Source: Methylomonas albis
GTDB lineage: Bacteria; Pseudomonadota; Gammaproteobacteria; Methylococcales; Methylomonadaceae
NCBI RefSeq assembly: GCF_014850955.1
Contig: NZ_JACXSS010000001.1
Span: 2,728,001 to 2,792,000, forward strand
DNA length: 64,000 nt
Direction of reading: 5' to 3'
Shown here: one piece after another, positions 18,751 to 42,602 of the stretch
Layout of the letters: each line of letters begins with the position of its first letter
Numbering within the stretch: the first letter of the stretch is position 1
Notes under the pieces: model-generated
Told to the model about the DNA's origin: nothing
Seen by the model: the letters and a program-made list of their open reading frames with translations, nothing else
Databases searched by the model: none
Made by a program: the position numbers and the translations under genes

Positions 18751-19728
18751 TTAATCTCTAGCATTTGAAGCTAACAAATTATTGAAGACTTCAGAATAGC
18801 GACTATCTCGTTCATAAAGTATACCAGCCAACTCGGTATTTAACAGAAAGTCCTCCAATTCATAAAAACACGTATAAGACACACTGGGCAACCAATGATG
18901 AAGTAAATGTAAGTTAAACCCCGCGCCGCCAAACAATCGCGAGAACACCCCTCGCCCAAAATTTCTCGTAATTGCTCCATGATTATTGGTATAATAATCG
19001 ACATTATTATCAGCATTATTATCACGGTGTTCAATAATCTGCCTTACGGCACCTAAAAAAGGAAAAACAAAAAACACGCCAAATACCCACGATACTGCCA
19101 AAGAATAACACTCAATCCGGTAAGCAAAAAGAACAACACTTGTATGAAATAAAAGACCTAACAAAGTTATTACATTAAAGTAAGCCCCCCCCTCTTCATT
19201 CCCTTCTTTTACTTTCGAATTTTTCAACCTGCCGAGCAAAACTTCAACAACGTAAATTCCTGTTATAGACTTTAAAATAAACACAGGCGTCAGAGCATTG
19301 AAATATGAATTTTCTGTATCTTTAACAGTGCCCAAATACAAGTGATGCCTCATATGAATTGGCCTATAAGACTTAACATCTTGCCCAACCAAAACCCCAA
19401 TAAAAATATTCGCCAATAAATCATTTAAGTTTTTATTAGATGCAATATTATAATGCGCAGCCTCGTGAAAAAATAGCGAAAGATATGCAACAACAAAACC
19501 AATTAATAACCCTGATATGGTTACGACTACAGATAGTAATAAGAGGCTTTCGCGCTCTATTTGAACAATAAGGTAACATACTGCAAACAGAACAGCATAT
19601 GCACCGATAATACTTACCCATACCTCTAAGTAATTTATGTCTAGCGTTCTTAGAAAATCTTTCAGAGATACCCCTCTAGAGTCTTTAATGCTTTTAACCT
19701 CACTAAAACCGACAGAATAATCGTTCAT
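18751..19728 (-). CDS. membrane fatty-acid desaturase-type di-iron enzyme
   Basis: The start is placed at ATG 19728 (MNDYSVGFSEVK), which overlaps the upstream stop as ATGA; the open frame extends to 19785 but inside the neighbour. The 325-aa integral membrane protein has three histidine boxes of the desaturase/hydroxylase superfamily: HEAAH (88-92), HMRHH (125-129) and HLLHH (274-278), plus an extra EHRD near 233. These ligate a di-iron centre that inserts a double bond or hydroxyl into an acyl or isoprenoid chain. Being coupled to an EmrE-like flippase inside a glycan locus is unusual; the substrate may be a lipid carrier or an acyl substituent. Confidence 0.88.
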   Translation of the reverse strand: MNDYSVGFSEVKSIKDSRGVSLKDFLRTLDINYLEVWVSIIGAYAVLFAVCYLIVQIERESLLLLSVVVTISGLLIGFVVAYLSLFFHEAAHYNIASNKNLNDLLANIFIGVLVGQDVKSYRPIHMRHHLYLGTVKDTENSYFNALTPVFILKSITGIYVVEVLLGRLKNSKVKEGNEEGGAYFNVITLLGLLFHTSVVLFAYRIECYSLAVSWVFGVFFVFPFLGAVRQIIEHRDNNADNNVDYYTNNHGAITRNFGRGVFSRLFGGAGFNLHLLHHWLPSVSYTCFYELEDFLLNTELAGILYERDSRYSEVFNNLLASNARD

Positions 19729-20066
19729 TTTGCAGTCCATCCCACTATTATTACACCTAAAAAAACAAAAGCTATACCAACCCATCTTAAACCGCTAATT
19801 GGCTCGGACAAAAGTAACCATGACGCCAAAATTACACCAACAAACTGTAAAACACTAAAAGCTTGAGCAACATTTAGTGGAAGTTTTTTTAAAATAAAAA
19901 TCCACACAACCAATGCAATAGCAAATAGTACAAACCCTATATAAACCTTACTATTATCTAGATCCAACAAATTTCTAATGTTGAATGTTGCTGAGCCTGT
20001 CTTCATAAACAAATTTGCTGAAATGGACAAAAAAAGAAAAAGGCAAAATGACAAAACCAAATGCAT
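19725..20066 (-). CDS. EmrE/SMR-like four-helix membrane protein (ArnE/F-like)
   Basis: A 113-aa protein made of four hydrophobic helices with the EamA/SMR pattern LPLNVAQAFSVLQFVGVILASWLLLSEPISGLRWVG split over helices 3-4. Length and motif match small multidrug-resistance-type and ArnE/ArnF-type proteins, which flip lipid-linked sugars. It lacks the membrane Glu14 context typical of true drug exporters, so a role in flipping undecaprenyl-phosphate sugars fits the locus better. It ends in an ATGA overlap with the desaturase gene. The 68-base gap upstream of it shows no clear promoter. Confidence 0.8.
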   Translation of the reverse strand: MHLVLSFCLFLFLSISANLFMKTGSATFNIRNLLDLDNSKVYIGFVLFAIALVVWIFILKKLPLNVAQAFSVLQFVGVILASWLLLSEPISGLRWVGIAFVFLGVIIVGWTAK

Positions 20067-23682: not shown

Positions 23683-23725
23683 CTTATTTTTAGAATTGAA
23701 ATAAAAGCATATTTACCATACTGAA

Positions 23726-23953
23726 TTAGTACAATGTTGCACCAATTATATTGGCGACATTATACAACCTGCTAGAACAGTTTTTTACAAACGCAACAAA
23801 AACATCTGATGACCCTTTGATTAATTCGTCACCTAGAGAGTCAGCGCCACTTAATTCAATGACTTGCACATCCATTTGTCTCGAAAAAAACTTCATTAAC
23901 TCAGAGACCACGCCTTCGTTAATATCTTGAAGACTTCTTAACTTTAAAGTCAA
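23726..23953 (-). CDS. unrecognised 75-aa ORF, probably a remnant
   Basis: A short frame with only a TTG start (23953), giving MTLKLRSLQDINEGVV...ANIIGATLY. Composition is protein-like (FSRQMDVQVIELSGADSLGDEL), but no family is recognised and a stop lies directly before the TTG. It sits 43 bases upstream of the ArnC-like gene and next to a 640-bp stretch with other open-frame scraps, so it may be the tail of a deleted gene. Confidence 0.35.
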   Translation of the reverse strand: MTLKLRSLQDINEGVVSELMKFFSRQMDVQVIELSGADSLGDELIKGSSDVFVAFVKNCSSRLYNVANIIGATLY

Positions 23954-24071
23954 TCACTATGAATTTAACTTTTTAACCTAAATCAATTAAGAGGGTGGGT
24001 ACCGATAAATTATTTGCATAAAATAGTGCGCACCTATCACTCATACAATTAAAAGCATAAATTATTTATGA

Positions 24072-24263
24072 TATTCAGCAATCAATATATTTGTAAATAA
24101 ACACATAAATAATGCCATAAAACCTATCATCCCATACCCAAAAGAAATCGACTCAAAAGACTTTGATGCGGAAGAAATCAACTGTGGTACTTTTACATTC
24201 GACTCGCATAGTGGATACAAACCGTATACACCTCATGATCCAGAAAATAACGGCCTAAAGTAA
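24072..24263 (+). pseudogene. startless open frame with protein-like tail
   Basis: On the plus strand, opposite to all surrounding genes, a 63-codon frame between stops ends PYPKEIDSKDFDAEE... then SHSGYKPYTPHDPENNG-LK and TAA at 24261. The residue mix is strikingly protein-like, but there is no in-frame ATG, GTG or TTG at a sensible place. It may be the C-terminal scar of a gene lost during rearrangement. The remainder of 23954-24419 is A+T-rich with nothing recognised. Confidence 0.25.
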
Positions 24264-24419
24264 TTCTTAACGCCACTTCGCTGAATAAATAGGAATAAAA
24301 TATCAAATAACCAAAGCAGTAAAAGATAACAGTATTAGTGTCGATACAGACAGCCTGTATTTAGAGCGCAATACGATATAACTTTACAAGCAACAACTAC
24401 AGTTTAAGTATCAAGCAAT

Positions 24420-24572
24420 TTATTTTTCCACACAGAACTTGTGAATAGCTTTAAATACCAACATAGCAGATCCATATAACGAGATAAACTGAAGCCCCAA
24501 GATAAAATTACTATGGTTATAGACATCTATAATACTATTGAAAGCGTTATTTGATGCCGTAGGAAATCTCAT
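24420..24572 (-). CDS. possible small membrane protein after the SGNH gene
   Basis: A 50-codon frame from ATG 24572 (MRFPTASNNAFNSIID...) ends with a hydrophobic helix (NFILGLQFISLYGSAMLVF) and a short basic tail. In the same frame 20 further codons upstream (to 24632) encode another hydrophobic stretch (HLAIANIWLYLVFFQ), giving a two-helix hairpin, but this longer form lacks a start. A CGGAG motif and a TTG in another frame lie just before it, so a frameshift near the N-terminus is possible. Low confidence. Confidence 0.35.
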   Translation of the reverse strand: MRFPTASNNAFNSIIDVYNHSNFILGLQFISLYGSAMLVFKAIHKFCVEK

Positions 24573-24644
24573 TTGAAAAAATACCAAGTAGAGCCATATG
24601 TTAGCTATAGCTAAGTGTACGAAACAATTTTTTCAAGGCTCCGA

Positions 24645-26291
24645 TTATTTAAAATGCGGCACAATCAATTCTTCATCAAGGATTTTACTGAATTTTGTAG
24701 CGCCTTTTGCATTCAAATGGTCTGGCATTTCCCAAGTAAAATCATCACTAGAAAAGCGGCCATCCCCAGTAAAGTCAACAAACTTAATATTATTTCTCGC
24801 TGAAAAATCTAACAAAATATCATGCATTTTATTCTTCTTATCTTTATCTAATTCCTGATAGTAGCTGGCATCTGTTGGCAACGTCGCCATTACAACGTTA
24901 ATATTATGTCCTCGAAGAAACGAAACTAGCGTGTCCCAATCACTCAAGTTATGTATGTAGTTATCACTATCAGTGGTGGAGTTGTGGTCTTTTGCCGCAG
25001 CCAACCCAAGGTTTTTGGACAGATCGGGTGCTACATCGCCTCCGTTAAACCATCCTAAACATGAAGCGACCACATCCACAGGCGCCAAAAGCTCTTCGCC
25101 GATTAAAGCTTTTCCATACAATGCGATCTTGCTGAAATTACGAGGCTCTAGCCAAAACTGCCAATTAAAAGGCAAGCCGACAGTGGTTTTCAGGGAAATA
25201 CCAAAATTCTGGCGCAAAGCGAACTGTCGCCACGACTGACTAAATGTCGAATAGTCCAACCCAAATGTAAAATAATTTACAGTCAATACCACCATCTTCA
25301 AATTTGGCATAATGCCGGAATATTTTTCGGCAAGTTTAGCATCAAAATACATACCGCTACCTGGGAATGCTAGATTAAACCCTTTGAGCGAAAACACTTC
25401 CGGTGTGACTCCATAAAAAGTATTAGATGACCCCACAACAAGCACCTCAACTTTTTCTGCTTCCTGCTCCAAAGCCACTCTTCTAGTATAGTAGTCAGTG
25501 TTAAGGTATGACATTTTATATTCGATATATACAATTACCAATAGCAACGGTAATGAAATAAAAACCAACTTAAATACAACTAATCGTACCTCATAATATT
25601 CACTCAATGCTTTCCACAAAACGACCATAAAGAGTAAAAATGCAAAAATTATAGTGGAGTAGATAATAGCCAAACTTAGTCGCGGAAAAGCAATATTACC
25701 TTTTACCAGTGAACTACTATCGATCTCACCTTTAAAAACGCGACTGTCATCAAAACCGGCACCTAGTATAAATTCAGACATCTCTATATTGAGACCATCT
25801 CCTGAGTAGTTTGCCACACTAACTCCATCTAATGTAGCCCTGACAAAGGCGCCATTCATAGCCTCAACTTCCAGAACATACCAACGGGACTTTTCAAGAG
25901 CGCTAGTTAAAGTCATTCCACGAAGTCCATTGGGAGCCTGTAAATCTTGTACTATAATCGCGACAGTTGAACCGGCTATCTCAACCCTAAGACCACGGTT
26001 ATAAGGGGCTGACTGAAATATATTTGGATACCCTTCAGTATCATCCACTCGGAAACGCAACTTTATTCGAAAATACGCGTTATTGGTATTCTCGATATTG
26101 CCTAATAAAAAAGGGGAGTCCCTCCCATATACATACGTGGGCAAATGAATATTTACACGGTTGTTTGCGATACTTTTTTCAGACGCTAACCGAGAATTGA
26201 TCCAAAACGAAATTTCCGTTGAGTATACGATCAATACAACAGTCACTATAAATAAAACAACCGATGTACTTTTAAAAAAAAACCTTGCCAT
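24645..26291 (-). CDS. membrane-anchored lectin-like + SGNH-hydrolase-like O-acylation protein
   Basis: The start is ATG 26291 (MARFFFKSTSVVLF), behind GAGG and 20 bases after the MBOAT stop; the frame to 26492 is the overlap with that gene. The 548-aa protein has a signal-anchor helix, then a beta-rich domain (about 40-200) resembling a LamG/concanavalin-type fold (FRIKLRFRVDDTEG, RWYVLEVEAMNGAFVRATLDG), a second membrane helix near 210-235, and an extracytoplasmic SGNH-like domain: VLVVGSSNTFYGV (block I Ser), GFNLAFPGSGMYFD and PDHLNAKGA (Asp-His pair). AlgJ/AlgX/DltD-type partners of MBOAT enzymes have this design. It probably completes acyl transfer to the polysaccharide outside the membrane. 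Confidence 0.8.
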   Translation of the reverse strand: MARFFFKSTSVVLFIVTVVLIVYSTEISFWINSRLASEKSIANNRVNIHLPTYVYGRDSPFLLGNIENTNNAYFRIKLRFRVDDTEGYPNIFQSAPYNRGLRVEIAGSTVAIIVQDLQAPNGLRGMTLTSALEKSRWYVLEVEAMNGAFVRATLDGVSVANYSGDGLNIEMSEFILGAGFDDSRVFKGEIDSSSLVKGNIAFPRLSLAIIYSTIIFAFLLFMVVLWKALSEYYEVRLVVFKLVFISLPLLLVIVYIEYKMSYLNTDYYTRRVALEQEAEKVEVLVVGSSNTFYGVTPEVFSLKGFNLAFPGSGMYFDAKLAEKYSGIMPNLKMVVLTVNYFTFGLDYSTFSQSWRQFALRQNFGISLKTTVGLPFNWQFWLEPRNFSKIALYGKALIGEELLAPVDVVASCLGWFNGGDVAPDLSKNLGLAAAKDHNSTTDSDNYIHNLSDWDTLVSFLRGHNINVVMATLPTDASYYQELDKDKKNKMHDILLDFSARNNIKFVDFTGDGRFSSDDFTWEMPDHLNAKGATKFSKILDEELIVPHFK

Positions 26292-26311
26292 ACTAGTAAT
26301 CGCCTCAGCAC

Positions 26312-27748
26312 TCAAAATTGAAAATAAATGAAGCTTTGGCCTTGTAACCACACCCCCCAAAAAGCGATGCAAGCTACAGCGACTTGATAAATAAACATAC
26401 GCAGCCACCAAGCGCATTTCTGGAACAGTTCCTCCAAATTGATGCGCACATAAAAATATTGCGCCACAATAAGAAACAAAATAAACAAACAATTCGATAC
26501 AAAGTCATTCTCGTTAAAAACGCTCGAAAAATGATCTAATGAAAAAATCCACATTAGAATTTGTTTTATAATAATAAAAGCATCGCTTAAACTTTCAGCC
26601 CTAAAGAATATATACGTGAAATTAACAAAAGAAAATGTAAGCCCCAACATAATAGCTTTGAATAAAAAAGCCGGTATTATTTTTGATAGTTTCTTTCGCT
26701 TTTTTGCAAAGACGACTTCCAATGAAAGACCAATGCCATGAAGCAATCCCCAAATTACGAATGTCCAACTCGCACCATGCCAAAAACCGCTTATCAAAAA
26801 CGTTAAAAGCAAAGCAACTACAATTCCATACATCCCTCTATCTCGAAGCCCCATAGCAGTAGGCTCGTAGACATAATCACGTAACCAAGTAGATAGAGAA
26901 ATATGCCATCGCCGCCAAAACTCTGATAGTGATGTAGAAGCATATGGGCGATCAAAATTCAGCATCAGCTTAAAACCCATTACGCGCGCAGCACCACGAG
27001 CCATATCCGAATAACCCGAAAAATCGCAGTACACTTGAAAACTAAAAAAAAGGGTTGCCACCATCAGGAGGCCCCCATCAAAGCCTTCCGGATTGTCGTA
27101 TATTGGTGAAACAAACCTTGCAAGACGGTCTGCAATAACTGCTTTTTTAAACAATCCCCAAGCCATTAGACGTAGCCCTGAAACGACGTCATTATAATTA
27201 AACCTATGCTCATCATGAAACTGGTGTAGCAAATTTTGTGGGCGCTCAATAGGGCCTGCAACTAGTTGAGGATAGAACATCACATATAATGCATATATTC
27301 CAAAATGTCGCTCCGATTTTTGATTCCCACGATAAACCTCAATAACATAACTTAAACTTTGAAACGTATGAAATGACAATCCGATCGGTAGCAGTAAATG
27401 CAATGCAGCTATGGATAAATCAAGTTTGAAAATTTCAGCAAGCTTATTCACATTCCATGTAAAAAAGTCATAGTACTTAAAAAAGAAAAGAATTAGACAT
27501 GTAAAAACAATACTAATCAAAAGCCATCTGTTTCGTATATGCCCCTCTGATTGTTCAATCTGAATTGCAGCGAAATAATCAATAATTATTGTTGCAGCGA
27601 GAATTAGCAAATATACAGGAACGAAAGCCATATAAAAAACACAGCTTGAAGCAAGCAGAACTAGCCAGCGATATTTAAATGGTGTAATAAAATATAGAAT
27701 GGTGACTATTGGAAAGAAAACAAAAAACAACCAAGAGTTAAACAACAT
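26312..27748 (-). CDS. MBOAT family O-acyltransferase (AlgI/DltB-like)
   Basis: A 478-aa polytopic protein. It has the MBOAT hallmarks: LPIGLSFHTFQSLSYVIEVYRG, PQLVAGPIERP, DFSGYSDMARGAARVMGF, SEFWRRWHISLSTWLRDYVY and the catalytic FWHGASWTFVIWGLLHG with invariant His324. These proteins move an activated acyl group across the membrane for O-acylation of alginate, peptidoglycan or teichoic acid. Here the gene directly follows FkbH, ACP, MaoC and SDR genes, so the donor may be a carrier-protein-bound acyl rather than acetyl-CoA. It overlaps the SDR gene by 11 bases and is followed by the SGNH-like partner. Confidence 0.95.
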   Translation of the reverse strand: MLFNSWLFFVFFPIVTILYFITPFKYRWLVLLASSCVFYMAFVPVYLLILAATIIIDYFAAIQIEQSEGHIRNRWLLISIVFTCLILFFFKYYDFFTWNVNKLAEIFKLDLSIAALHLLLPIGLSFHTFQSLSYVIEVYRGNQKSERHFGIYALYVMFYPQLVAGPIERPQNLLHQFHDEHRFNYNDVVSGLRLMAWGLFKKAVIADRLARFVSPIYDNPEGFDGGLLMVATLFFSFQVYCDFSGYSDMARGAARVMGFKLMLNFDRPYASTSLSEFWRRWHISLSTWLRDYVYEPTAMGLRDRGMYGIVVALLLTFLISGFWHGASWTFVIWGLLHGIGLSLEVVFAKKRKKLSKIIPAFLFKAIMLGLTFSFVNFTYIFFRAESLSDAFIIIKQILMWIFSLDHFSSVFNENDFVSNCLFILFLIVAQYFYVRINLEELFQKCAWWLRMFIYQVAVACIAFWGVWLQGQSFIYFQF

Positions 27749-28457
27749 TTACACCGCCGTTTATAAGAATATTGACTCCATTTATATGTCTACTTGCAGT
27801 AGCCAAAAAAAATACCGTATCAGCAACCTCGTTTGTAGTGACTAAACACTTCAGCGGACTACTATTTGCAATGTCTTCAATTTGGCGCTCATCAAGATTA
27901 CTGATTAATGCAGTTTGCATCATCGAAGGCGAAACACAATTAGACGTAATGTTGTGGCGGGCGTTCTCACCCGCCCAAGATCGGCTAAGAGATAAAAGAT
28001 AGGCTTTATTTGCAACATATTCAGAAAGCCCAACTGGTGGGAAATTTGCCAAATATGATGTTAAGATTGTAATAATGCGGCCATTTTTCTTTTTACGAAA
28101 CAGCAATATTGCCTGCTTTGTGATTCGTAAAGTCGGCAATACATTTTCAGAAAAGCTTTCTAAAACGTCATTGAAATCTATTTGATGGAAATGCTTTACT
28201 TTCATACCTGTTAAAGCGTTATTTATCAAAATATCAAGATCCATTTCTAACATTTTAGCGAGTAAGGTATCGACACTATTTTGATCTGTAAAATCGCACG
28301 CAATACCTATTGTGCACGGAAACTCACGCTCTATACGACGAGCTTCTTCCATAGAAGTATTAAAAGTAAAATAAACACGATAATCACCTGTAACTGCTAA
28401 CCGCCTAGTAATAGACGAACCCAGCCCAGAGGCCCCGCCAGTAACTAATACGTTAAT
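27738..28457 (-). CDS. short-chain dehydrogenase/reductase, probable ATT start
   Basis: A classical SDR of about 239 aa: NVLVTGGASGLGSSITRRL (NAD(P)-binding TGxxxGxG), NNALTG, and the catalytic Ser/Tyr/Lys with YVANKAYLLSL; the tail HINGVNILINGGVNVV is typical. The open frame extends to a TTG at 28493, but those codons (MVLHRIRRRFKI) lie inside the MaoC gene and look non-native. AAGGAG sits just before two ATT codons (28460, 28457) followed by AACGTATTAGTTACTGG, so initiation at ATT is most likely. It probably reduces or oxidises the ACP-bound acyl chain made by its neighbours. Confidence 0.82.
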   Translation of the reverse strand: MNVLVTGGASGLGSSITRRLAVTGDYRVYFTFNTSMEEARRIEREFPCTIGIACDFTDQNSVDTLLAKMLEMDLDILINNALTGMKVKHFHQIDFNDVLESFSENVLPTLRITKQAILLFRKKKNGRIITILTSYLANFPPVGLSEYVANKAYLLSLSRSWAGENARHNITSNCVSPSMMQTALISNLDERQIEDIANSSPLKCLVTTNEVADTVFFLATASRHINGVNILINGGVNVV

Positions 28458-28461
28458 AATT

Positions 28462-28875
28462 TTAAATCTCCTTCTGATCCGATGTAATACCAAGACTTAG
28501 CTTAGCCGAAGCTACAATCATTTTGTCTACCAAATTGCGGAATTTGCAAACAATTTCAACAACATTGACAGAGTCATGCACATCCTGCACCACTACTTCA
28601 AGCACCAACTCATCATTCAAATAAACAGGCCTACGAAATTTTATTTCCTGGGATAAAATAATTACTTCAGATATTGGCAAACACATTCCTACAAAATAGG
28701 ATAAAAATCCACAAAGAATATTTCCATGCATCACTTTTGACTGGAAACCACGAGCTACCGCATACTCCGCATCAGTATGCAATTGGTGATAATCGCCAAA
28801 GACAGAAATGAAGCCTTCGTATACGAGCTTGGATACATGAAAACGCTCAACAAACTTATCACCAACCTTAACCAT
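28462..28875 (-). CDS. MaoC-like hot-dog dehydratase
   Basis: A 137-aa protein with the MaoC/R-specific hydratase active-site pattern: GDYHQLHTDAEYA followed by GFQSKVMHGNILCGF (Asp/His pair) and QEIKFRRPVYLNDELVLE. These enzymes add or remove water across the 2,3-bond of acyl thioesters. Its start overlaps the ACP stop by eight bases, and its end contains the ribosome binding site of the SDR gene, so the three are tightly coupled. The natural substrate is presumably an acyl group on the neighbouring ACP. Confidence 0.92.
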   Translation of the reverse strand: MVKVGDKFVERFHVSKLVYEGFISVFGDYHQLHTDAEYAVARGFQSKVMHGNILCGFLSYFVGMCLPISEVIILSQEIKFRRPVYLNDELVLEVVVQDVHDSVNVVEIVCKFRNLVDKMIVASAKLSLGITSDQKEI

Positions 28876-29107
28876 TTACTTTTTGTGCGATAGCGTCGCA
28901 CATCTCCCCCACAGTCATCCACCCCCTAATTTCAGCACCCGTAAACTTCACTTTAAAATGCTTTTCAATAGCAACAATGAAGGTAATATGGTTAAGGGAA
29001 TCCCAGTCTTCCACATCAGCCGCTGTAGTTTCTCTTTTAAGACTTACTTCAGTATCATCTATTACTTCATGAAAAATTTCATTTAGTATTTCAAGTATCT
29101 CCGACAT
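28868..29107 (-). CDS. acyl carrier protein
   Basis: A 79-aa acidic helical protein with the phosphopantetheine attachment motif DWDSLNHI (Ser37). ATG 29107 (MSEILEIL) is chosen because AGGTGA lies five bases upstream; three extra codons to a GTG at 29116 are in frame but would include that site. A dedicated ACP next to an FkbH-like enzyme is the standard partner for loading glyceryl units from 1,3-bisphosphoglycerate. Holo-ACP formation needs a phosphopantetheinyl transferase not seen in the window. Confidence 0.93.
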   Translation of the reverse strand: MSEILEILNEIFHEVIDDTEVSLKRETTAADVEDWDSLNHITFIVAIEKHFKVKFTGAEIRGWMTVGEMCDAIAQKVNG

Positions 29108-29123
29108 CAATATCACCTAAACC

Positions 29124-30845
29124 TTAAATTATCTCAATACAATGTTCAAACTCTTGGTAGACCTCAACATCTAATATCCACCTCCCACCATTATTTTCCG
29201 TGAACCCCAAACTATGGTAATGATTTTTGACCAATCCATTTTTCGGTGTAGAAATATATTCCCCACAAATACGCTTAGCTCCCAAACGCTTTGCGCCTTG
29301 AACTATTTCATTCAATGCAAGATTCTGTACCCCTCTATTTAATACTCTGCAGCTCATGACCCATGTATCTATAAAGAACTCATCACCATAAAGATAACCA
29401 ATAACCACACTAATCAAGCCGTAGCTACCAAATTGATCATTCAAACTGAAAGTCCAGTTTAAATGAACGTCTGAAGTGCACAACCTCCTTAGGTCCTCTT
29501 CTGTATAGCGGATAGTGCGCAAATTGAACTGATTGGATCGCTGCAATAACTGCGCAACACGTGGAAGATTAAAGGCGGAAAATGATCGAATTTCGCACTT
29601 CATCCCAAGGCTTTTTAAAAAACCCCTCTCATCCGTGAAAGATGCCTGAATACTTTCCCTCTTCAGCTCTTGTTGAAAATGAAGTGTACGCTGCCCATCT
29701 TCAGAGGTATAAGCACTTGTTTCGAATAAATTTAACCCACTAAGAAAGCAAAGATAGTCAGCAGGATCTTCTGGCAATTCTGGAACTGTAATTTCTGGGA
29801 GATGTCTTTTAACAACACCTCTTTCATATGGATTATCATCTATAAATACTATTGAATCGAAACCGATATTCAAGAATTTTTTAATTTTTTTTAGGTTATC
29901 AACCTTACTTTCCCAATTTGCCATAAAGATAGCTATATCATCCAGGCGCAAGACCATTTCTGGGTGACTCAAGAATGGGCTTTTAGCAATCTCTTCGTCA
30001 TTTTTACTACAAATAGCTAGTAACACGCCGCGTCGCTGCAATTCTTTTGCCCAACATTGAAGCTCCGAGAAAGCTTTTCCGTAGCCTAAATCTCCCACTT
30101 GAATATTTTCAATACCGTCATCACCTATAACTCCACCCCATATTGTATTATCCAAATCCAATACAAGACATTTTTTTGCAAAACCAGATAGCACTTTTAT
30201 ATTCTCAACAACCGCTTTTGCAATCTCAGGCAAAAAATCAATACTAAACACCATATCGGCATTAACATAGTTGCGATTATCAATTATATAGTTATGTCCA
30301 AATGCGGCAGTTAGAGCAGAAAAATCACATATAAAAATATTTTTTGCCTCAACAGCTAGCGCCATCAATTGAAAATTGAGATACCGAATTTGAAAAAGAA
30401 ATGACGTATCTGTCTTATTTGCGTACTGGCCGAAAACAGAATCGTTTAACTCCATAAAGTTACAAATAAGTACTTTAACACCTTGGGCGTGCTTACTTAT
30501 CTCTTCAATAAATACCCTAATCCTGGTTATTTCATCCAGTGCGAAACCGCTTCTTTTTTTTAACTCTGTTTTATAAAATCTTTTTTTAAGCTTTTGTACC
30601 GATTGAAATAAAACGATATATTCCGGATGAAATTGATACATCTCTGACGTACCATACATAATTTGTCGATGAATTTGGTCGTAACTAGCCTCAAAAACCT
30701 CCAAATCGAACCCAGCTTCATAGCCATATCCACGAATAGCATGGGTGAAATGTTGCGTTGAGGAATCACCCAATAAAGCAATTTTTGCCGATTTTAACCC
30801 AGAAAAATCTTTCTTAAGATTCTTTTTTAATTCAATAAAATGCAT
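29124..30845 (-). CDS. FkbH-like HAD-IIIC enzyme (glyceryl-ACP loading)
   Basis: A 573-aa three-part protein. Residues 20-210 form an SGNH-like region (IALLGDSSTQHF, GDSS at 26-29). A HAD phosphatase-type domain follows: LVLDLDNTIWGGVIGDDG with nucleophile Asp230, AICSKNDEE and FIDDNPYERGVV. The C-terminal GNAT-like part holds LLQRSNQFNLRTIRY and SCRVLNRGVQ. FkbH-type proteins dephosphorylate 1,3-bisphosphoglycerate and place the glyceryl group on ACP. It is the first gene of the ACP-MaoC-SDR-MBOAT-SGNH block, with the ACP start 16 bases after its stop. Strongly A+T-rich. Confidence 0.92.
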   Translation of the reverse strand: MHFIELKKNLKKDFSGLKSAKIALLGDSSTQHFTHAIRGYGYEAGFDLEVFEASYDQIHRQIMYGTSEMYQFHPEYIVLFQSVQKLKKRFYKTELKKRSGFALDEITRIRVFIEEISKHAQGVKVLICNFMELNDSVFGQYANKTDTSFLFQIRYLNFQLMALAVEAKNIFICDFSALTAAFGHNYIIDNRNYVNADMVFSIDFLPEIAKAVVENIKVLSGFAKKCLVLDLDNTIWGGVIGDDGIENIQVGDLGYGKAFSELQCWAKELQRRGVLLAICSKNDEEIAKSPFLSHPEMVLRLDDIAIFMANWESKVDNLKKIKKFLNIGFDSIVFIDDNPYERGVVKRHLPEITVPELPEDPADYLCFLSGLNLFETSAYTSEDGQRTLHFQQELKRESIQASFTDERGFLKSLGMKCEIRSFSAFNLPRVAQLLQRSNQFNLRTIRYTEEDLRRLCTSDVHLNWTFSLNDQFGSYGLISVVIGYLYGDEFFIDTWVMSCRVLNRGVQNLALNEIVQGAKRLGAKRICGEYISTPKNGLVKNHYHSLGFTENNGGRWILDVEVYQEFEHCIEII

Positions 30846-31798
30846 ATATTAAACGAACCACCAATTAACTTTAAAACCTATGACATAAAAAATCACACCA
30901 CTAACAGGTTGGAGAAAAACTGTTTTTAAAACCAATCGAGCCTGTATTTTTAGCACCACAAGATAGGCTTTGATGCTAAATATAGGCCTCTTCCGGCTGA
31001 ATTAGTGACCTGAATATGATTTTTTCACCAACCTGCTAAGCGAAAATATAAAGGGAACCTCGAAAGATCCTAATCATTTGCTAAACCTCTAGCTTTATTT
31101 TTTAAATATGAGGCTTTTCGAAGCATCCTAATGCTTAGCTACATCTCATAAATCATGAAGCAAACTCCCCCTTACGCTAGTGCTGGACGGGTTAAGAGTA
31201 TTGCACTCATACCCAGCGTACCTAACCAACTTAACAACACAGCCCGAATATGCTCCGCCGATCTAGCTGGTTTAACACACTATAAACTTGAATCAAAGTA
31301 CTACGGCGACGAGAACCACTCCATTTTCTCAAAAGAGCTCACCCATACCGGGGTATTTCGTTCCTCCTTAGAGTTAAAGACATATTCCTTACAAGGCTTC
31401 CTTTCTTGCGCCGGAAATGATAGCTATGGACAGCTGTTTAACATCATAGACACCTGTAACTGAATCGATGCGTTCGTCACTGTCTATTTAACTCAGTTAT
31501 TCACATAGAACCTGAAAATCGCAGTCATGAGAGAAGTCACATCCATCGCTCAATTTTCTCAGTTTCGGCTTAAAAACCGAGATGAACCTTGCGCCATTGC
31601 GGGTGATATGCCCCTCATGCAATCTGGTTTTCCGTTCACGTTAAGGCGATTAGAAATACAAGCCCGCAAATACTTCTAGCGACGTATGAGTAGGCATGGC
31701 TCAATAGAGAACATACAGGTTCAACAAAATAGCAGCAATACTTGAGGCTTGTTGTAAAACCAAGCAAAAATAGATTTTTGAGCATCAAACGGATTTAA
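30846..31798. other. 950-bp region with no recognised gene, probable scar
   Basis: This is the largest gap in the locus. Two plus-strand frames exist: 31155-31463 (102 codons, MKQTPPYASAGRVKS...) and 31527-31679 (50 codons, MREVTSIAQFSQFRL...). Both run against the direction of the locus and belong to no family I recognise. Composition is less A+T-rich than the flanking genes. The region may be a decayed insertion between the membrane-protein transcript and the FkbH block, or contain an internal promoter. No hairpin with a T-run was found. Confidence 0.45.
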
Positions 31799-31915
31799 CT
31801 AGCCGTATTGGAAAATTTTACGGTCAGCCGCGTGATTCATAGGCTTATCCCATCCATTCCATTTTTTATCAATCCATAACATAATGAAATCAGGTTTCTT
31901 GAAATAATTAAACAT
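31799..31915 (-). CDS. 38-aa ORF coupled to the membrane protein, likely truncated gene start
   Basis: ATG 31915 shares a base with the stop of the 814-aa gene (TGATG), the arrangement used for coupled genes. The product MFNYFKKPDFIMLWID continues KKWNGWDKPMNHAADRK and stops at TAG 31799. It has the feel of a normal N-terminus cut short by the decayed DNA that follows. No family is assigned. Confidence 0.35.
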   Translation of the reverse strand: MFNYFKKPDFIMLWIDKKWNGWDKPMNHAADRKIFQYG

Positions 31916-34408: not shown

Positions 34409-35314
34409 TTATTTAAAAACTATGTTCATAATGTTACTATCAAACTCAATACTCTGATAATCTAACTCAACATGTTGAGTTGACGTTGACTTAATTGATA
34501 ATTCCGCTAATCTTGCAAACGCTCTACCATGCCACTTACACTTAACTTTCTTACCGTCACAGTTGCTTTCATCGAGATTAGCGCCTTCATGAGGGCATAA
34601 ACGGGGATATAAAGCCAAGGTATCTTCAGAGCGCACTAACCTCAAACCAAGATGGTCCGGGCGCCCTATCATATATTCGCCATCGCTCGGCAACACCTGA
34701 TCGATATCTATCGTTAGATTCTCTGCCTGTATTTTAGGAATAACAACATTTGGTTTCATAATATCCATAGTTTCCTCGAAACTATAGGTTGCACCTAGCT
34801 TCTTAAAATCATAACCCCAACTGCGCAACTCACCTCTGCGCGTACGCATCGGAATATCTGTAGACATTAAATTGTCATAGTTACGTTTAAGAATCCAGCG
34901 AATTATCGGGAACGTCCATTTTAATAGTTTTGGCGACCCCACTGCATAAGTAGTTTCTACTCGAGTTCTGCAAGGCCCTAATGAGACATAACGCGTTTCA
35001 ATCATCAATACATAAAACATCCAAGTGGTGTAATACGTTTGAGAGTTTTCTCCAGACTCAAAGTTTGTCAGTGAAAATGGGAATCTAAAACACAATACCT
35101 TTTGCATATTTACCGACGTAATCAAATCATCGGCTACAATCGTCGGTATTGCTTCAGCTAACTCGTGGACATAATGAAGGTGCGGAACATCTTTATAATT
35201 CCAGTCAGCATCGTCGATCGCATAATCTCCTTCATGGACTAAGGTAAACTCGGAAAAACTCAAACCCTCTGCAGTTAGCCGAGCGATGATATTATTTTTT
35301 GTATATTTTTTCAT
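34409..35314 (-). CDS. Rieske [2Fe-2S] protein with C-terminal cluster domain
   Basis: A 301-aa soluble protein. Near the C-terminus CPHEGANL and CKWHGRAF give a complete Rieske motif (Cys240, His242, Cys259, His262; spacing C-x-H-x16-C-x2-H). The N-terminal 200 residues (FRFPFSLTNFESG, GPCRTRVETTYAVGSPKLL, MRTRRGELRSWGYDF) look like a SRPBCC/START-type binding domain. In ring-hydroxylating oxygenases the Rieske domain comes first, so the order here is reversed. It lies 13 bases downstream of a methyltransferase gene within the glycan locus. It may hydroxylate or transfer electrons to a sugar or lipid; no reductase partner is seen. Confidence 0.82.
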   Translation of the reverse strand: MKKYTKNNIIARLTAEGLSFSEFTLVHEGDYAIDDADWNYKDVPHLHYVHELAEAIPTIVADDLITSVNMQKVLCFRFPFSLTNFESGENSQTYYTTWMFYVLMIETRYVSLGPCRTRVETTYAVGSPKLLKWTFPIIRWILKRNYDNLMSTDIPMRTRRGELRSWGYDFKKLGATYSFEETMDIMKPNVVIPKIQAENLTIDIDQVLPSDGEYMIGRPDHLGLRLVRSEDTLALYPRLCPHEGANLDESNCDGKKVKCKWHGRAFARLAELSIKSTSTQHVELDYQSIEFDSNIMNIVFK

Positions 35315-37620: not shown

Positions 37621-39405
37621 CTATTGCAAATATTGCGCTACTACGGAATACAAATGTTCGTCCAAATCCGGTGTCATTTGATGTAATGGATTTGATTGCA
37701 TCGAACCTGTTTCCGTTACCCTACTGGTAATTTTGGGAAAATAAGTTTGTTCCGGATCTATCGGCACGACAAACCCAGCCGGTTCATCGCTTGCGAATAG
37801 GCGTTGGAAATTAGGATCTTGCTCGAAATTAGCATCGAGTTTGATACAAGGCAGATTAAAGGCTTTAAATAAGGTTAGCCAATCCGGCAAGCCCAATCCC
37901 GAGGACTGGTCGCAACCAATATAGGCGCCATTAAAATAATTTCGTTGCGTCATGCGAATAGATGCATAGCCATTATCGTTAAATATAAATATTTTCAGGT
38001 TTAACTTATTAACAGCAACCGTGCCCAACTCCTGTAAATTTTGGGCAAATCCGCCATCGCCTTCCACTAGAATTGTCCTGCGCTGCGGATAGGCGAACGC
38101 CGCACCTATTGCTCCGCTCAATCCGTACCCCATGGATGCCAAGCCCTTGTTGGTAACGATGTGTTGGCCTCGCTGTTGAGCGAAGGTTTGCATCATCACG
38201 GTAAAGGCGCCGCCGCTACTGCAGGGAATGACGTTATCGGTTTCCCGGCAATGTACAGATAGGCGGCTGACAAAATCGTACGGCGATACATAATTCTCGG
38301 CGGTATTGTTGATAGGCTCGATCAACGGCAATTCGGCTTTCACTTTTTGGCAATAAGCCACCCATTCGGCATGATCGCCAAGGCTGGCTGACGCTAATGC
38401 TTGTAATACTTGATTGGCATCGCCTTGCAAACCGCAATCGACGCGAGGATGGCCTTTGCTAAGCTCGGTAGGGTCGCATTCGACTTGCACTACTCTGCCC
38501 TTAGGCACGAACTCCTGCCAGTTAAAGCCGGTTTGTTGCAGACCCAAGCGGGTTCCCAGCGCGATTAGCAAATCTGCTTGTTGCATCAATAAATTGCTGT
38601 AACGTTGCCCCCAGGTATTCGGGCGGCCAAAATACAAGGGATGATCCGCTGCCACCCTATCCGCGCTATTCCATGTGGTTGCCAATGGAATACCCATGGG
38701 TTCCAAAGCATCGTAAATCTGCTCCACAGTCTGCCTAGCAACACCTGCGCCGATTAACAAGAATGGCCGCTTTGCCGAGCGTACATCATCGATTAAACGC
38801 TGAATTTCGGCTGCCCCAATAGCTGGAAAAGCGAGCTTCTCCGAGGAGTGGAATTGGCATATCGGATCGTTGGCGTCGACTGGCGCACCTTGAATATCCA
38901 ATGGAATTTCAAGAAACACCGGACCTTTGCGACCTGTAACCCCGGCATCGATAATCCGGTTAAATTCCTCACAGGAAATCAAGCTATCCATCAGCACCGA
39001 TTTTGAGGTGATCGGCTTGACGATATCGACACCATCGATCTCTTGAATGCCGCGCTGGCGTACTTGTTGCCGACACAGATCGGCAGTCTTTACTTGCCCG
39101 CCAATCACCAATAACTCCCGGCTCTCCAAATAGGCACCCGCTACAGCGGTAACGATATTGGTTAAGCCAGGACCGGCGGTTACCAGAGCAAAGGCTTTGC
39201 CATCGGTGCTAATTTCATTGAAATATTCCGCTGCAATGCCGGCTGCCACCTCATGAACCACGCTAACGCATTTGAAATGACGATTCACGCTAGCCAAAAT
39301 GTGCATGATATTGCCGCCCGCCACGTAGAAGCAGTGGGTATATCCTCTTTCCTTTAACCAATCGGCCAATAGATCGCTATATTTTATGGTCTTATTTTGC
39401 ATCAC
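37621..39405 (-). CDS. ThDP-dependent acetolactate-synthase-like enzyme (YerE-like)
   Basis: A 594-aa ThDP enzyme with three domains: the N-terminal PYR domain with catalytic Glu in VVHEVAAGIAAEYF, a central domain, and the PP domain with GDGGFAQNLQELGTVAV and FIFNDNGYAS (the GDG...NDN cofactor motif). It resembles acetolactate synthases but sits directly after rfbF-rfbG-rfbH, as yerE does in CDP-yersiniose clusters, where it transfers a two-carbon unit from pyruvate to C4 of a CDP-3,6-dideoxy-4-ketohexose. A branched-chain sugar is thus the best prediction. A housekeeping acetolactate role is unlikely because no ilvN is linked. Confidence 0.85.
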   Translation of the reverse strand: MMQNKTIKYSDLLADWLKERGYTHCFYVAGGNIMHILASVNRHFKCVSVVHEVAAGIAAEYFNEISTDGKAFALVTAGPGLTNIVTAVAGAYLESRELLVIGGQVKTADLCRQQVRQRGIQEIDGVDIVKPITSKSVLMDSLISCEEFNRIIDAGVTGRKGPVFLEIPLDIQGAPVDANDPICQFHSSEKLAFPAIGAAEIQRLIDDVRSAKRPFLLIGAGVARQTVEQIYDALEPMGIPLATTWNSADRVAADHPLYFGRPNTWGQRYSNLLMQQADLLIALGTRLGLQQTGFNWQEFVPKGRVVQVECDPTELSKGHPRVDCGLQGDANQVLQALASASLGDHAEWVAYCQKVKAELPLIEPINNTAENYVSPYDFVSRLSVHCRETDNVIPCSSGGAFTVMMQTFAQQRGQHIVTNKGLASMGYGLSGAIGAAFAYPQRRTILVEGDGGFAQNLQELGTVAVNKLNLKIFIFNDNGYASIRMTQRNYFNGAYIGCDQSSGLGLPDWLTLFKAFNLPCIKLDANFEQDPNFQRLFASDEPAGFVVPIDPEQTYFPKITSRVTETGSMQSNPLHQMTPDLDEHLYSVVAQYLQ

Positions 39406-39417
39406 TTGTTTGCCAGC

Positions 39418-40731
39418 TTATTGACGGATACCAAAAAAGATTTCTATTTTTTCGGCGACGAATTCCAACATTTCGGTGGTTAAAGCCGGATAAATACCAA
39501 TCCAAAAGGTTTGCCGCATAATTCTATCGGTTACATCCAGCGAGCCGGAAATTCTGTATTGCCTACCTTTCATATACGGTTGCCGGGTTAAATTTCCAGC
39601 AAACAGCAAACGGGAGCCGATTTTGTATTGATCCAGGTATTTCAACAACTCCACGCGTTCATGGCCTGAATCCTCCTTTAGCGTAATAGGAAACCCGAAC
39701 CATGAGGGATCCGATCCGGGCGTCGCTTCAGGCAGAATTAAATATTGCTCGCAAGTGGCTAAGCGTTGTTTCAAGAATTTAAAATTACGTTTTCTGATTT
39801 CAATCAACTCCGGCGCGCGCTCTAGCTGCGCTAAGCCGCAAGCAGCCTGCATATCGGTAATCTTTAAGTTATACCCCAAGTGCGAATAGGTGTATTTGTG
39901 GTCGTAACCAGCCGGCAAATCGCCTAACTGCCAACCAAAGCGCTTTTTACAGGTATTATCGACGCCAGGAGCGCAATAACAATCTCTGCCCCAATCCCGA
40001 AACGACTCGATGATAGTTTTCAAGCGACGACTACTGGTAAATACCGCACCGCCCTCGCCCATTGTAATGTGGTGAGCCGGGTAGAAACTAAGCGTACCAA
40101 TATCCCCAAAAGTGCCGACATTGCGGCCCTTGTAGGTTGTGCCTAAGGCATCGCAGCAGTCTTCTATCAGCCAAAGATTGTATCTTTTTGCTATTTGGAC
40201 AACTTGATCCAGATCAAATGGATTGCCCAGAGTGTGGGCGATCATAATTGCTTTTGTTTTAGGCGTGATGGCAGCCTCGATTTTACTTGGATCGATGTTG
40301 TAAGTCGGAATTTCCACATCGACAAATACCGGAACCAGGTCGTAAAGCAAGATAGGGTTAACCGTTGTGGGAAAACCGGCTGCCACGGAAATAACTTCGT
40401 CGCCTTTTTGTAAGGCCCGATCGCCCAGTTTCTCCGATGTCAAACAAGCAAAAGCCAGCAGATTCGCAGACGAGCCGGAATTGACCGTCAGCGCGCTGCT
40501 AACGCCGATAAACTCGGCCAATTGCTTTTCAAACTGGTCGTTAAATCGTCCGGTAGTCAACCAACCGTCCAGCGACGCTTCAACCATGTAGCTAAGTTCT
40601 TTCGCACCCAGAACCTTACCTGATGGTGGGACCACGGATTGTTCCGGAACGAAAGCTTTTTCGGCATAACGTTCAGCGGCGTATTGTTCAACCAAATCCA
40701 AAATCTGCGCTTTTAATGTATTTTCTGTCAC
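39418..40731 (-). CDS. rfbH: CDP-6-deoxy-4-keto-hexose 3-dehydrase (E1/DdhC)
   Basis: A 437-aa PMP/[2Fe-2S] enzyme that removes the C3 hydroxyl of CDP-6-deoxy-4-ketohexose. Two diagnostics are exact: the aminotransferase lysine is replaced by His220 ([14 protein letters not shown]), and the cluster cysteines fall at C193, C251, C253 and C261, matching the known C-x57-C-x1-C-x7-C spacing of E1. It is thus a dehydrase, not an aminotransferase. It normally pairs with a flavin/Fe-S reductase (E3, DdhD), which is not in this window. It begins 27 bases after rfbG. Confidence 0.97.
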
Positions 40732-40758
40732 TGTATTTTCTTTATATCAAATAAAAAA

Positions 40759-41841
40759 TTAATGTTGTTCGGATGCTAAAAACTGCTCTAACTGCTCTGC
40801 GCAGACTTGCCGCATATCCTTGCCTTGTTGGTAGGCCAGGTTCCAGTCGACAATCATCGCCAATGCTTGGGCCAGAGTCCAACGCGGCCCCCAACCCAAA
40901 AGAGTCTTGGCTTTGGAGCAATCAAGCTTTAAATAGTGAGCTTCATGCGGTTGCTCACTACCGTCGATTTGCCAGCTTGCGCCATTGCCCCATAAATCCG
41001 CAAGCTTTTCCAATATCCACGATACTGGTTGAGCATCTGCTTCGCTGGGCCCAAAATTCCAACCCTCAGCGTATCGACTACCTTTTTTATACAGTTGTTC
41101 GGCTAACAGGACATAGCCGGTCACCGGCTCCAGTACGTGCTGCCAAGGCCTAATCGCTGTCGGGTTACGAACCGTCACAGCCTCCCCCACCATGAACGCT
41201 TTCATGATGTCCGGAATTAAGCGATCTTGAGCCCAATCTCCGCCGCCGATCACATTTCCGGCACGCACCGAAGCCACCGCCACACCGTGCTCAGCGTAGC
41301 GTTCGCTGGGGAAAAAGGAATTGCGATAGCTGGCAGTCACCAGCTCCGAACAGCCTTTGCTATTGCTGTAAGGATCGAAGCCACCCATCGGCTCGTTTTC
41401 ACGGTAACCCCACAACCATTCCTTGTTTTCATAGCATTTGTCGCTGGTGACTATCACTACTGACTTTACAGACGAGGTGTGCCTGACCGCCTCCAGTAAA
41501 TTAACCGTACCCATCACATTGGTGGCGTAGGTTTCTACTGGCTGTTGGTAGGAATAACGCACAAGCGGTTGCGCGGCCAAATGAAACACAAACTCAGGTT
41601 GAAAAATTTGCATTTCCGTCATCACGCAGGTTAAATCGCGAATGTCGCCTTCAACGTGCTGTAGTACCGAAGCAACATCGGCCACTTGGAATAAACTTGG
41701 CGTGGTCGGCGCTGGTAACGCATATCCTTTGATCTCCGCACCGAGCCGATGCAGGTATAACGCCAACCAACCGCCTTTAAATCCGGTATGTCCGGTTATA
41801 AAAACCCGTTTGCCTCGCCAAAAATCGCTATGTTCTACCAT
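40759..41841 (-). CDS. rfbG: CDP-glucose 4,6-dehydratase
   Basis: The start is ATG 41841 ([13 protein letters not shown]), with GGAAG just upstream and a seven-base overlap with rfbF; the frame runs ten codons further into that gene. The 360-aa extended SDR has [14 protein letters not shown] (NAD binding), [28 protein letters not shown] and a catalytic YSNSKGCSE (Tyr-x3-Lys). It makes CDP-4-keto-6-deoxyglucose from CDP-glucose, feeding RfbH. The rfbF-G-H order matches known CDP-dideoxyhexose operons. Confidence 0.97.
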
Positions 41842-42602
41842 ATCTTCCACGGTGCTTTTTGCTGTTGCCAAAGCTGTTCCAAATGCTGTTTATCTCTTAA
41901 TGTGTCCATGGGTTGCCAGAAGCCTTTGTGGAAATAAGCGTGCAGCTGATTGCTGTTCGCCAGACGCTCCATCGGTTCTTTCTCCCATAGCGTTTCGTCG
42001 CTATCGATTAAATCGAACACTGCCGGCGACAACACAAAAAAACCGCCGTTGATCCAGGCGCCGTCGCCCTGCGGTTTCTCCTGAAAACTTTTGATGCGGC
42101 TACCCATCAATTCCAAGGCGCCAAACCGCCCGGGCGGTTGCACGGCGGTCACTGTTGCGGCGTTATTGTGGGAATGATGAAAATCGATCAGCGCATTAAT
42201 GTCGACATCGCCGACTCCATCTCCGTAAGTAAAACAGAATGTTTCGTCGCCGACATAATCACGAACTCTTTTTAACCGGCCACCGGTCATGGTTAATTCA
42301 CCTGTGTCTACTAAAGTGACTTTCCATGGCTCTGCATATTTTTGATGCACCTGCATCTCGTTATGCTCCATATCGAAGGTTACATCCGACATGTGCAAAA
42401 AATAGTTGGCAAAATACTCCTTAATAATATAGCCTTTATAACCCAAGCATATTATAAACTCGTTAATCCCATAATGAGAATATAACTTCATTATGTGCCA
42501 CAAAATAGGCCTGCCACCTATTTCTATCATCGGCTTAGGCTTCACCGAGGTTTCTTCATTAATACGAGTACCCAATCCACCCGCCAGAATAACCAACTTC
42601 AT
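41835..42602 (-). CDS. rfbF: glucose-1-phosphate cytidylyltransferase
   Basis: A 255-aa nucleotidyltransferase opening [25 protein letters not shown] (split here as AGGLGTR for CTP binding and KPKPM for sugar phosphate). [11 protein letters not shown] carries the metal-binding aspartates, and [13 protein letters not shown] is typical of the RfbF type rather than RfbA. It forms CDP-glucose from CTP and glucose-1-phosphate, the entry to the CDP-deoxysugar branch. It is separated by 32 bases from the epimerase upstream and overlaps rfbG. Confidence 0.97.

Follow-up and report, generated by a model that had tools for sequence, protein, structure and literature searches.

Six genes on the minus strand (30845-24645) of the 64,000-nucleotide stretch of the Methylomonas albis genome analyzed here (the window) may encode a relay, similar to the Dlt system, in which a C3 acid is built on a carrier protein and then attached to an exported glycan, a reading to which we assign a probability of about 0.6. 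The genes lie head to tail and encode an FkbH protein, an acyl carrier protein (ACP), a MaoC-like hydratase/dehydratase, an SDR ketoreductase-like protein, an MBOAT acyltransferase and an SGNH partner. Judging from this gene content, the proposed route appears to lead from a glycolysis intermediate to a C3 acid on the carrier, across the membrane and onto surface sugars. The parts of the reading differ in strength: acylation by an MBOAT/SGNH pair that is fed by a carrier is very probable, derivation of the acyl group from glyceryl is probable, and lactyl, formed from glyceryl-ACP, is slightly favored as the product in the window. An earlier note on this DNA, made from its letters alone, had placed six open reading frames of these families here, and all six are in place, five of them backed by Pfam or NCBIfam. 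The catalytic residues it had pointed out, including His324 of the MBOAT, Ser40 of the ACP and Asp28/His33 of the MaoC protein, are conserved in relatives.

As expected from its family, FkbH would take glyceryl from 1,3-bisphosphoglycerate, strip the remaining phosphate and load the ACP. The MaoC protein would then remove the 3-OH of glyceryl-ACP to give an enol, i.e. pyruvoyl-ACP, and the SDR would reduce the 2-keto group to yield lactyl-ACP. By analogy with PatA and DltX, the acyl group on the ACP would be passed by the MBOAT to the Tyr in the FXYXXF peptide at the C-terminus of that same protein, and the SGNH partner, acting like DltD and PatB, would take it from there to esterify the glycan.

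The six-gene order recurs in two other genomes, at locus L055 (genome G539, another genus of the same family) and locus L056 (G474, another family of the same order), whose proteins are 51% and 46% (FkbH), 46% and 43% (MaoC), and 52% and 50% (SDR) identical to those of the window, respectively. For the sixth gene, identity to the window is 36% in the SGNH part of the L056 copy and only 18% for the L055 copy, which is called SGNH-like from shared Ser and His blocks. The FkbH of L055 is 80% identical to one from Flavobacterium psychrotolerans and groups among Flavobacteria and their relatives in the FkbH tree, suggesting that such blocks probably move between phyla. A larger sample took, out of 483 relatives, the 80 most similar in FkbH; these loci are related to one another and, by record title, mostly Bacteroidota. 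Hidden Markov models (HMMs) built from these 80 loci, L055, L056 and the window were run on every frame of both strands up to 5 kb from FkbH, with matches below 60 bits not counted. The 80 loci contained ACP in 75 cases, MBOAT in 62, MaoC in 31, SDR in 28, a glyoxalase-fold (VOC) protein in 21 and a methyltransferase in 13; where each side extended over 5 kb or more (56 loci), the counts were 55 (ACP), 45 (MBOAT), 23 (MaoC), 20 (SDR) and 16 (VOC). The commonest sets among the 80 were ACP+MBOAT+MaoC+SDR (19), ACP+MBOAT (17), ACP+MBOAT+VOC (10), ACP+MBOAT+methyltransferase+VOC (6) and ACP+MaoC+SDR (6). All four of ACP, MaoC, SDR and MBOAT are found no further than 5 kb from FkbH in 20/80 loci, one of which also has a methyltransferase. 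The co-occurrence across genomes that had been suggested as a check was thus found, and the order kept in L055 and L056, together with the four partners beside FkbH in these 20 loci, rules out a chance array of unrelated genes.

FkbH and ACP form the constant core of these loci, as supported by sequence comparison. The FkbH of the window (29124..30845, minus strand), a putative glyceryl loader, contains FkbH_N, HAD-IIIC and the C-terminal FkbH domain together with the D-x-D-N-T motif, and matches PF21211 (2e-61) and TIGR01686 (298.8 bits, cut-off 146.65) as well as the solved relative PDB 3slr (BF1531; 2e-120). It is the only FkbH match in its genome. The motifs D[LM]DNT and SCR are kept in the FkbH of 83/83 loci, and DDNP-x-E in 79/83. 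The ACP (28868..29116, minus strand; PF00550) carries the DSL Ser at position 40, a residue present in 76/76 aligned ACPs. Charging of an ACP by FkbH with glyceryl from 1,3-bisphosphoglycerate has been proposed (PMC7489565), and the FkbH/ACP/FabH scheme of tetronates, including a glycerate-activating FkbH and an ACP, is called confirmed in PMC4979870. Since FkbH-ACP-MBOAT loci without tailoring genes are common, glyceryl is likely the default acyl group.

The putative delivery pair is probably of the acyl-shuttle (Dlt/Pat) type, as supported by comparison. The MBOAT (26312..27748, minus strand) matches PF03062 at 4e-28; its sole NCBIfam match is DltB (171.7 bits, under the cut-off of 375), and a PDB sequence search at E ≤ 0.1 gave two relatives, 8jem and 6bug, both of them DltB (1e-32 and 1e-31). 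It ends in FIYFQF, a C-terminal acyl-shuttle peptide. Across the MBOATs near FkbH, the WHG catalytic His (His324 in the window) is present in 72/72, and the C-terminal FXYXXF is strict in 68/72, with the Tyr first in three and last in one; the Tyr of this motif is described as acylated in PatA and DltX (PMC12148441). A frame of at least 240 aa follows in 65/72, a count that misses the partner of the window, whose open frame overlaps the MBOAT; two crude motif patterns match 48/65 and 39/65 of these frames.

The membrane-anchored SGNH partner (24645..26291, minus strand) has 548 aa and an extra beta-rich N-terminal domain. It has no Pfam match, and its structure model has a mean pLDDT of 66.5, with the C-terminal part much better. 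Foldseek placed residues 262-548 (the last ~285) closest to DltD (7dxm, E 7e-5), with PatB (7tlv) at E 6e-4, in agreement with the SGNH call that the earlier note had made for this gene; many SGNH enzymes reach a similar Z against the model, which thus indicates resemblance of fold, not function. AlgJ and AlgX were not among the matches listed in either fold search. Eighteen chosen SGNH-like proteins all share a Gly-x-Ser motif (Gly287 and Ser289 in the window), one Pro, one His (His525) and one Gly. The partner had also been described as lectin-like; its N-terminal part is indeed beta-rich, whereas a lectin fold is weakly supported, as this part of the model (mean pLDDT 46.7) is too poor for a fold search. 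In L056, the counterpart of this extra domain is a separate gene upstream of FkbH.

Between loader and transferase lie two putative tailoring enzymes. The MaoC protein (28462..28875, minus strand) matches PF01575 at 4e-9, and its best PDB relatives are the (R)-specific enoyl-CoA hydratases 5cpg and 1iq6. The catalytic motif of such (R)-hydratases, Asp-x4-His, is present as Asp28 and His33, which are kept in 33/34 and 34/34 aligned rows, respectively. The SDR (27738..28457, minus strand) matches PF13561/PF00106, and several FabG models are among its best NCBIfam matches, all below cut-off in the matches listed. Classical SDR ketoreductases carry Ser-Tyr-x3-Lys and G-x3-G-x-G motifs, and the window protein has the complete set; in the aligned rows, which include a few other SDRs, Tyr159 and Lys163 are kept in 32/32 and Ser146 in 26/32. 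An enoyl reductase is less likely, given the Y-x3-K spacing of the ketoreductase type.

MaoC and SDR are frequently coupled. An SDR accompanies MaoC in 26/31 MaoC loci, and a single open frame contains MaoC and then SDR in 9 of 36 FkbH loci outside the 80 (17 distant loci, L152 and 18 from a Bacteroidota sample, among which L184 is probably the same place as L136), with domain scores of 17 to 171 bits. These fusion frames are L033:11754-13271, L049:8491-9738, L052:7970-9427, L054:12082-13776, L063:6341-8011, L188:11269-12711, L191:10519-12162, L194:7218-8429 and L195:7017-8198; Pfam confirmed both domains in 4/4 tested (L033, L049, L194, L195), and no fusion was found in the 83 core loci. Their existence in FkbH loci suggests that a single acyl group is processed first by MaoC and then by SDR, also where another enzyme uses that group, and it moved our estimate for lactyl slightly upward from even odds. 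Fused two-step tailoring may feed other transferases in loci without an MBOAT; a WcbI-type gene is present in the fusion locus L033. In aeruginosin biosynthesis, a ketoreductase domain (AerA) reduces a carrier-bound 2-keto acyl group, and FkbH-loaded glycerate is O-methylated (PMC10143770). A chemistry in which glyceryl is dehydrated to pyruvyl and then reduced to lactyl would fit the cassettes and the fusions, and its separate steps have precedent.

MaoC and SDR are, however, generic families of the fatty-acid type, with FabG models among the SDR matches, and the two enzymes and the ACP might instead handle ordinary short 3-hydroxyacyl or enoyl groups, e.g. 3-hydroxybutyryl from fatty acid synthesis, with FkbH in some other role. 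This alternative is improbable. Pfam and NCBIfam searches of the six block proteins detected no ketosynthase, adenylation enzyme, ligase or acyl transferase that could charge the ACP, in line with the earlier remark that the block has neither a ketosynthase nor an adenylation enzyme. In addition, FkbH and ACP remain constant while MaoC and SDR come and go.

Behind the same loader, tailoring genes are exchanged as cassettes (none, MaoC+SDR, VOC or methyltransferase), a feature not foreseen by the earlier note. The second common cassette is the VOC protein, and MaoC occurs in 0/21 VOC loci (Fisher 4e-6, a value that is not corrected for relatedness and so overstates the certainty). The best PDB relatives of the VOC protein are the glyoxalase-I-like 2qh0 and 3hdp, and its Pfam family is Glyoxalase_4. 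We take it to be akin to methylmalonyl-CoA epimerase, and for this reason it may epimerize C2 of glyceryl-ACP. Label changes were counted on a quick FkbH tree in which the window and L056 sit on long branches. The MaoC label cannot be explained there with fewer than 24 changes, of which starred branches force 14; shuffled labels average 26.9 and give so low a count in 82/500 cases. The VOC label requires 16 (shuffled mean 18.2, as low in 46/500). The label "none" is clustered (14 changes versus 18.3 shuffled, 0/500), and all cassette groups jointly require 36 changes versus 44.8 shuffled (0/200), suggesting that cassette type follows the history of the loader, but weakly.

Four cassette states occur among 12 Chryseobacterium/Kaistella loci, 10 of them with a methyltransferase gene in common at their flank: no cassette (4), VOC (3), methyltransferase+VOC (3) and MaoC+SDR (2). 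Pairs with the same cassette are more alike by 24 points in the MBOAT (0/5000 shuffles) and by 2.4 points in FkbH (159/5000), and their SGNH partners are 66% identical, compared with 41% for pairs with different cassettes; the MBOAT effect comes mostly from the cassette-less loci. When FkbH is allowed for, the MBOAT effect across the full set of 60 usable loci is small, at 0.9 points (32/2000 shuffles). In our reading of this pattern, the loader stays constant, the acid changes, and the transferase partly changes too.

These comparisons bear on whether the MBOAT/SGNH pair does no more than O-acetylate the glycan with acetyl-CoA as donor, with FkbH, ACP, MaoC and SDR feeding a separate cytoplasmic acyltransferase. 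PatA uses acetyl-CoA (PMC12148441), and some FkbH-ACP loci without an MBOAT carry a hexapeptide or WcbI-type acyltransferase gene instead. However, the MBOAT found within 5 kb in 62/80 loci often follows directly after the ACP or the cassette, and in the 12 Chryseobacterium/Kaistella loci MBOAT similarity tracks the cassette far more than FkbH similarity does, although mostly via the cassette-less loci. O-acetylation alone therefore seems an unlikely function of the pair.

Beyond the nearest relatives, an MBOAT was found in 7/17 distant FkbH loci from the window's class and three Alphaproteobacteria plasmids (L034, L050, L057, L058, L059, L060, L157). A VOC match accompanies six of these seven and is weak (20 bits) in L034, whose record names a VOC protein. 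The strict FXYXXF end is present in five of the seven MBOATs, and in the other two its Tyr and final Phe are retained. Sinorhizobium meliloti ml28 has the genes in the order VOC, MBOAT, an annotated TonB-dependent receptor, ACP and FkbH, with capsular export genes ~5 kb further on. A search from the MaoC side through 395 Bacteroidota genomes (E ≤ 1e-25, at most 10 MaoC candidates scored per genome) gave two matches, the search's own center and one new match, G863, which has FkbH-ACP-MaoC-SDR-MBOAT. The Flavobacterium assembly G578 contains three equal-scoring FkbH-ACP-MaoC-SDR-MBOAT copies (L144, L149, L150), two of them on one contig in opposite orientation; the triple copy may be an assembly effect.

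Several observations weigh against the proposed lactyl relay or its generality. The substrate of FkbH is taken from its family by analogy. In a neighbor-blind control, FkbH was found at E ≤ 1e-60 in 20 of 395 Bacteroidota genomes (at least two of the 20 loci are probably also among the 80; G577 is the genome of L083), and an MBOAT lay near FkbH in only 5/20, and in 4/7 of those scoring above 770 bits. A separate MaoC was present in 2/20 and a MaoC-SDR fusion in four more (L188, L191, L194, L195). Moreover, 0/9 fusion loci had a VOC or MBOAT match. FkbH-ACP is thus often used without an MBOAT and also serves other enzymes, and the proportion of 62/80 applies to those FkbH family members that are closest to the window. 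Among the syntenic pairs listed that contrast VOC with MaoC+SDR, MBOATs are 75-78% identical, compared with 46-48% for two pairs with L119, so that the two cassettes need not demand different transferases. The Asp of the SGNH D-x-x-H motif is Met in the window and L056 and Asn in some others, although it is Asp in most relatives. At L094:10963, MaoC has Ala in the column of the catalytic Asp, in a locus with the order FkbH-methyltransferase-ACP-MaoC-MBOAT and without an SDR. This is one of 5/31 MaoC loci without an HMM-detected SDR within 5 kb (L066, L094, L103, L116, L130), where the pathway may stop at pyruvoyl or yield another ester.

The same relay could accordingly transfer an ester other than lactyl, such as pyruvoyl, unmodified glyceryl or another C3 acid, with MaoC and SDR performing another reaction; for example, the SDR might change the configuration at C2. 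The MaoC loci without an SDR favor this possibility, as does the combination of FkbH, ACP and MBOAT without any of the tailoring genes looked for in 17/80 loci, which suggests that bare glyceryl is probably usable. However, the joint occurrence of MaoC and SDR (26/31), their fusion (9/36) and the absence of MaoC from all 21 VOC loci are as expected of a single two-step conversion, and a non-lactyl ester is considered a minority prospect, though less remote than the fatty-acid-type or O-acetylation alternatives.

More broadly, the loci may represent a small exchangeable assembly line for surface-glycan esters, with a constant loader, plug-in cassettes that set the acid, and MBOAT/SGNH delivery; we give this wider reading an even chance. 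Loci without a cassette would then make D-glyceryl, a VOC epimerase L-glyceryl, a methyltransferase O-methylglyceryl and MaoC+SDR lactyl, and MaoC with a split transketolase and an aldo-keto reductase would make a branched acid. Under this scheme, a cassette swap at one locus would alter surface chemistry much as O-antigen loci alter sugars. Such loci hint at how bacteria might genetically encode glyceryl, lactyl and O-methylglyceryl esters on their polysaccharides, with an acid predictable from cassette content. Gellan, for instance, carries an L-glyceryl ester. A split transketolase pair, possibly another tailoring cassette, was observed in FkbH-MaoC loci at L116:12151-13942, L130:12481-15127 and L131:12113-13883 (by Pfam in L130 and by cluster in the others), with an aldo-keto reductase beside it in L130. 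In L111:14138-15949 and L137:11937-13757, FkbH-ACP is followed by a single protein that combines FrhB/ferredoxin and hexapeptide-acyltransferase parts (by Pfam in L111 and by cluster in L137), and no MBOAT was found near FkbH-ACP in either.

Among known systems, Dlt (DltA-DltC-DltB-DltX-DltD, D-alanylation of teichoic acids) shares with the window a carrier protein and the shuttle Tyr motif and, probably, a DltB-related MBOAT and a DltD-like SGNH protein. However, the window has FkbH in place of the adenylating ligase DltA, with no AMP-binding domain among the six proteins, and tailoring enzymes between loader and MBOAT; its shuttle peptide is fused to the MBOAT, whereas DltX is separate, and the block is part of a glycan cluster that includes O-antigen-type sugar genes. 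In the absence of the adenylating ligase, the block is, by its predicted proteins, not a Dlt system, although it would work like one. O-acetylation pairs of the PatA/PatB type share the MBOAT with C-terminal FXYXXF and WHG His and, probably, the SGNH partner, but are described as fed by acyl-CoA without a carrier (PMC12148441), whereas the window has an ACP and a loader in the block. That 2025 study states that MBOAT-SGNH pathways other than Dlt have no carrier protein, a rule to which FkbH-ACP-MBOAT-SGNH loci look like a recurrent exception in gene content. These loci make the acyl-donor question for MBOAT/SGNH pathways testable.

The glyceryl modules of tetronates and methoxymalonyl-ACP share the loader family and a free-standing ACP with the window. 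There, FabH-like enzymes feed the glyceryl into a polyketide, or it is oxidized and methylated (PMC7489565), whereas in the window MaoC+SDR and the MBOAT come after FkbH-ACP. A methoxymalonyl-type pathway was rejected, as its two dehydrogenases and O-methyltransferase are absent from the block, which has MaoC and one SDR only. The flagellin locus of Campylobacter jejuni also includes an FkbH-domain gene, cj1302, within a locus that makes a glyceric-acid glycan substituent (PMC7099621, PMC3068675), but there a flagellin sugar (di-O-methylglyceryl-pseudaminic acid) is modified, and the available portions of these sources mention no MBOAT/SGNH pair. Strain 12664, in which cj1302 is a pseudogene, lacks the dimethylglyceryl sugar (PMC7099621), as does strain 12661, which lacks a neighboring gene annotated as an epimerase (PMC7099621, PMC3068675). 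We draw the link between cj1302 and the glyceryl sugar ourselves, from a correlation across two strains with further gene differences. The earlier note knew of no described system with this exact gene set, and the literature search, with subscription journals mostly outside it, likewise yielded no description of an FkbH-ACP-MaoC-SDR-MBOAT-SGNH set; searches on gellan/glyceryl/MBOAT and lactyl/bryostatin/difficidin gave no usable precedent.

The genes of the block are tightly packed, with a gap of 7 bases between FkbH and ACP, an overlap of 8 between ACP and MaoC, an overlap of 11 between SDR and MBOAT, and a gap of 20 between MBOAT and SGNH. The SDR frame as listed (27738-28493) begins at a TTG, the nearest standard start, which lies inside MaoC and gives an overlap of 32. 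However, the SDRs of L055 and L056 begin 12 residues later, where the window has an ATT (28457) behind AGGAG; this ATT is therefore the probable start, leaving a gap of 4 bases after MaoC. Similarly, the SGNH frame as listed has 615 aa and begins inside the MBOAT gene, and the ATG at 26291 is its likely start. The GC content of the block is 37.7%, compared with 48.9% and 49.9% at the ends of the window, and the block sits in an AT-rich glycan cluster that was probably acquired. Of the flanking gaps, 23690-24640 has no match elsewhere in the genome and 30850-31910 has a single 69-base partial match, insertion-element families not having been part of either search. Against plasmids, MaoC had no match and FkbH matched 118 records, every one below 60% identity.

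The surrounding cluster contains a CDP-3,6-dideoxyhexose set (37621..42602, minus strand) comprising a thiamine pyrophosphate (TPP) enzyme, RfbH (749 bits), CDP-glucose 4,6-dehydratase (TIGR02622, 501 bits) and glucose-1-phosphate cytidylyltransferase (TIGR02623, 478 bits), the latter three all above the NCBIfam cut-off. The TPP enzyme matches acetolactate synthase models below cut-off, and its position beside RfbF/RfbG/RfbH-type genes presumably reflects a branched 3,6-dideoxyhexose pathway of the yersiniose kind. With dTDP-sugar-type genes and several glycosyltransferases also present, the predicted acceptor is likely an O-antigen-like polysaccharide. The host genome has two matches above cut-off to PF02461, the ammonia/methane monooxygenase A subunit family, and for this reason is probably that of a methanotroph. 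In addition, the window encodes, in a glycan cluster, an AroB-related protein (43636-44712) whose best NCBIfam match is TIGR04425, a putative cyclizing sugar-phosphate phospholyase (275 bits, below the cut-off of 400), and, within the glycan cluster, a fatty acid desaturase (18751-19785) and a Rieske-domain protein (34409-35314).

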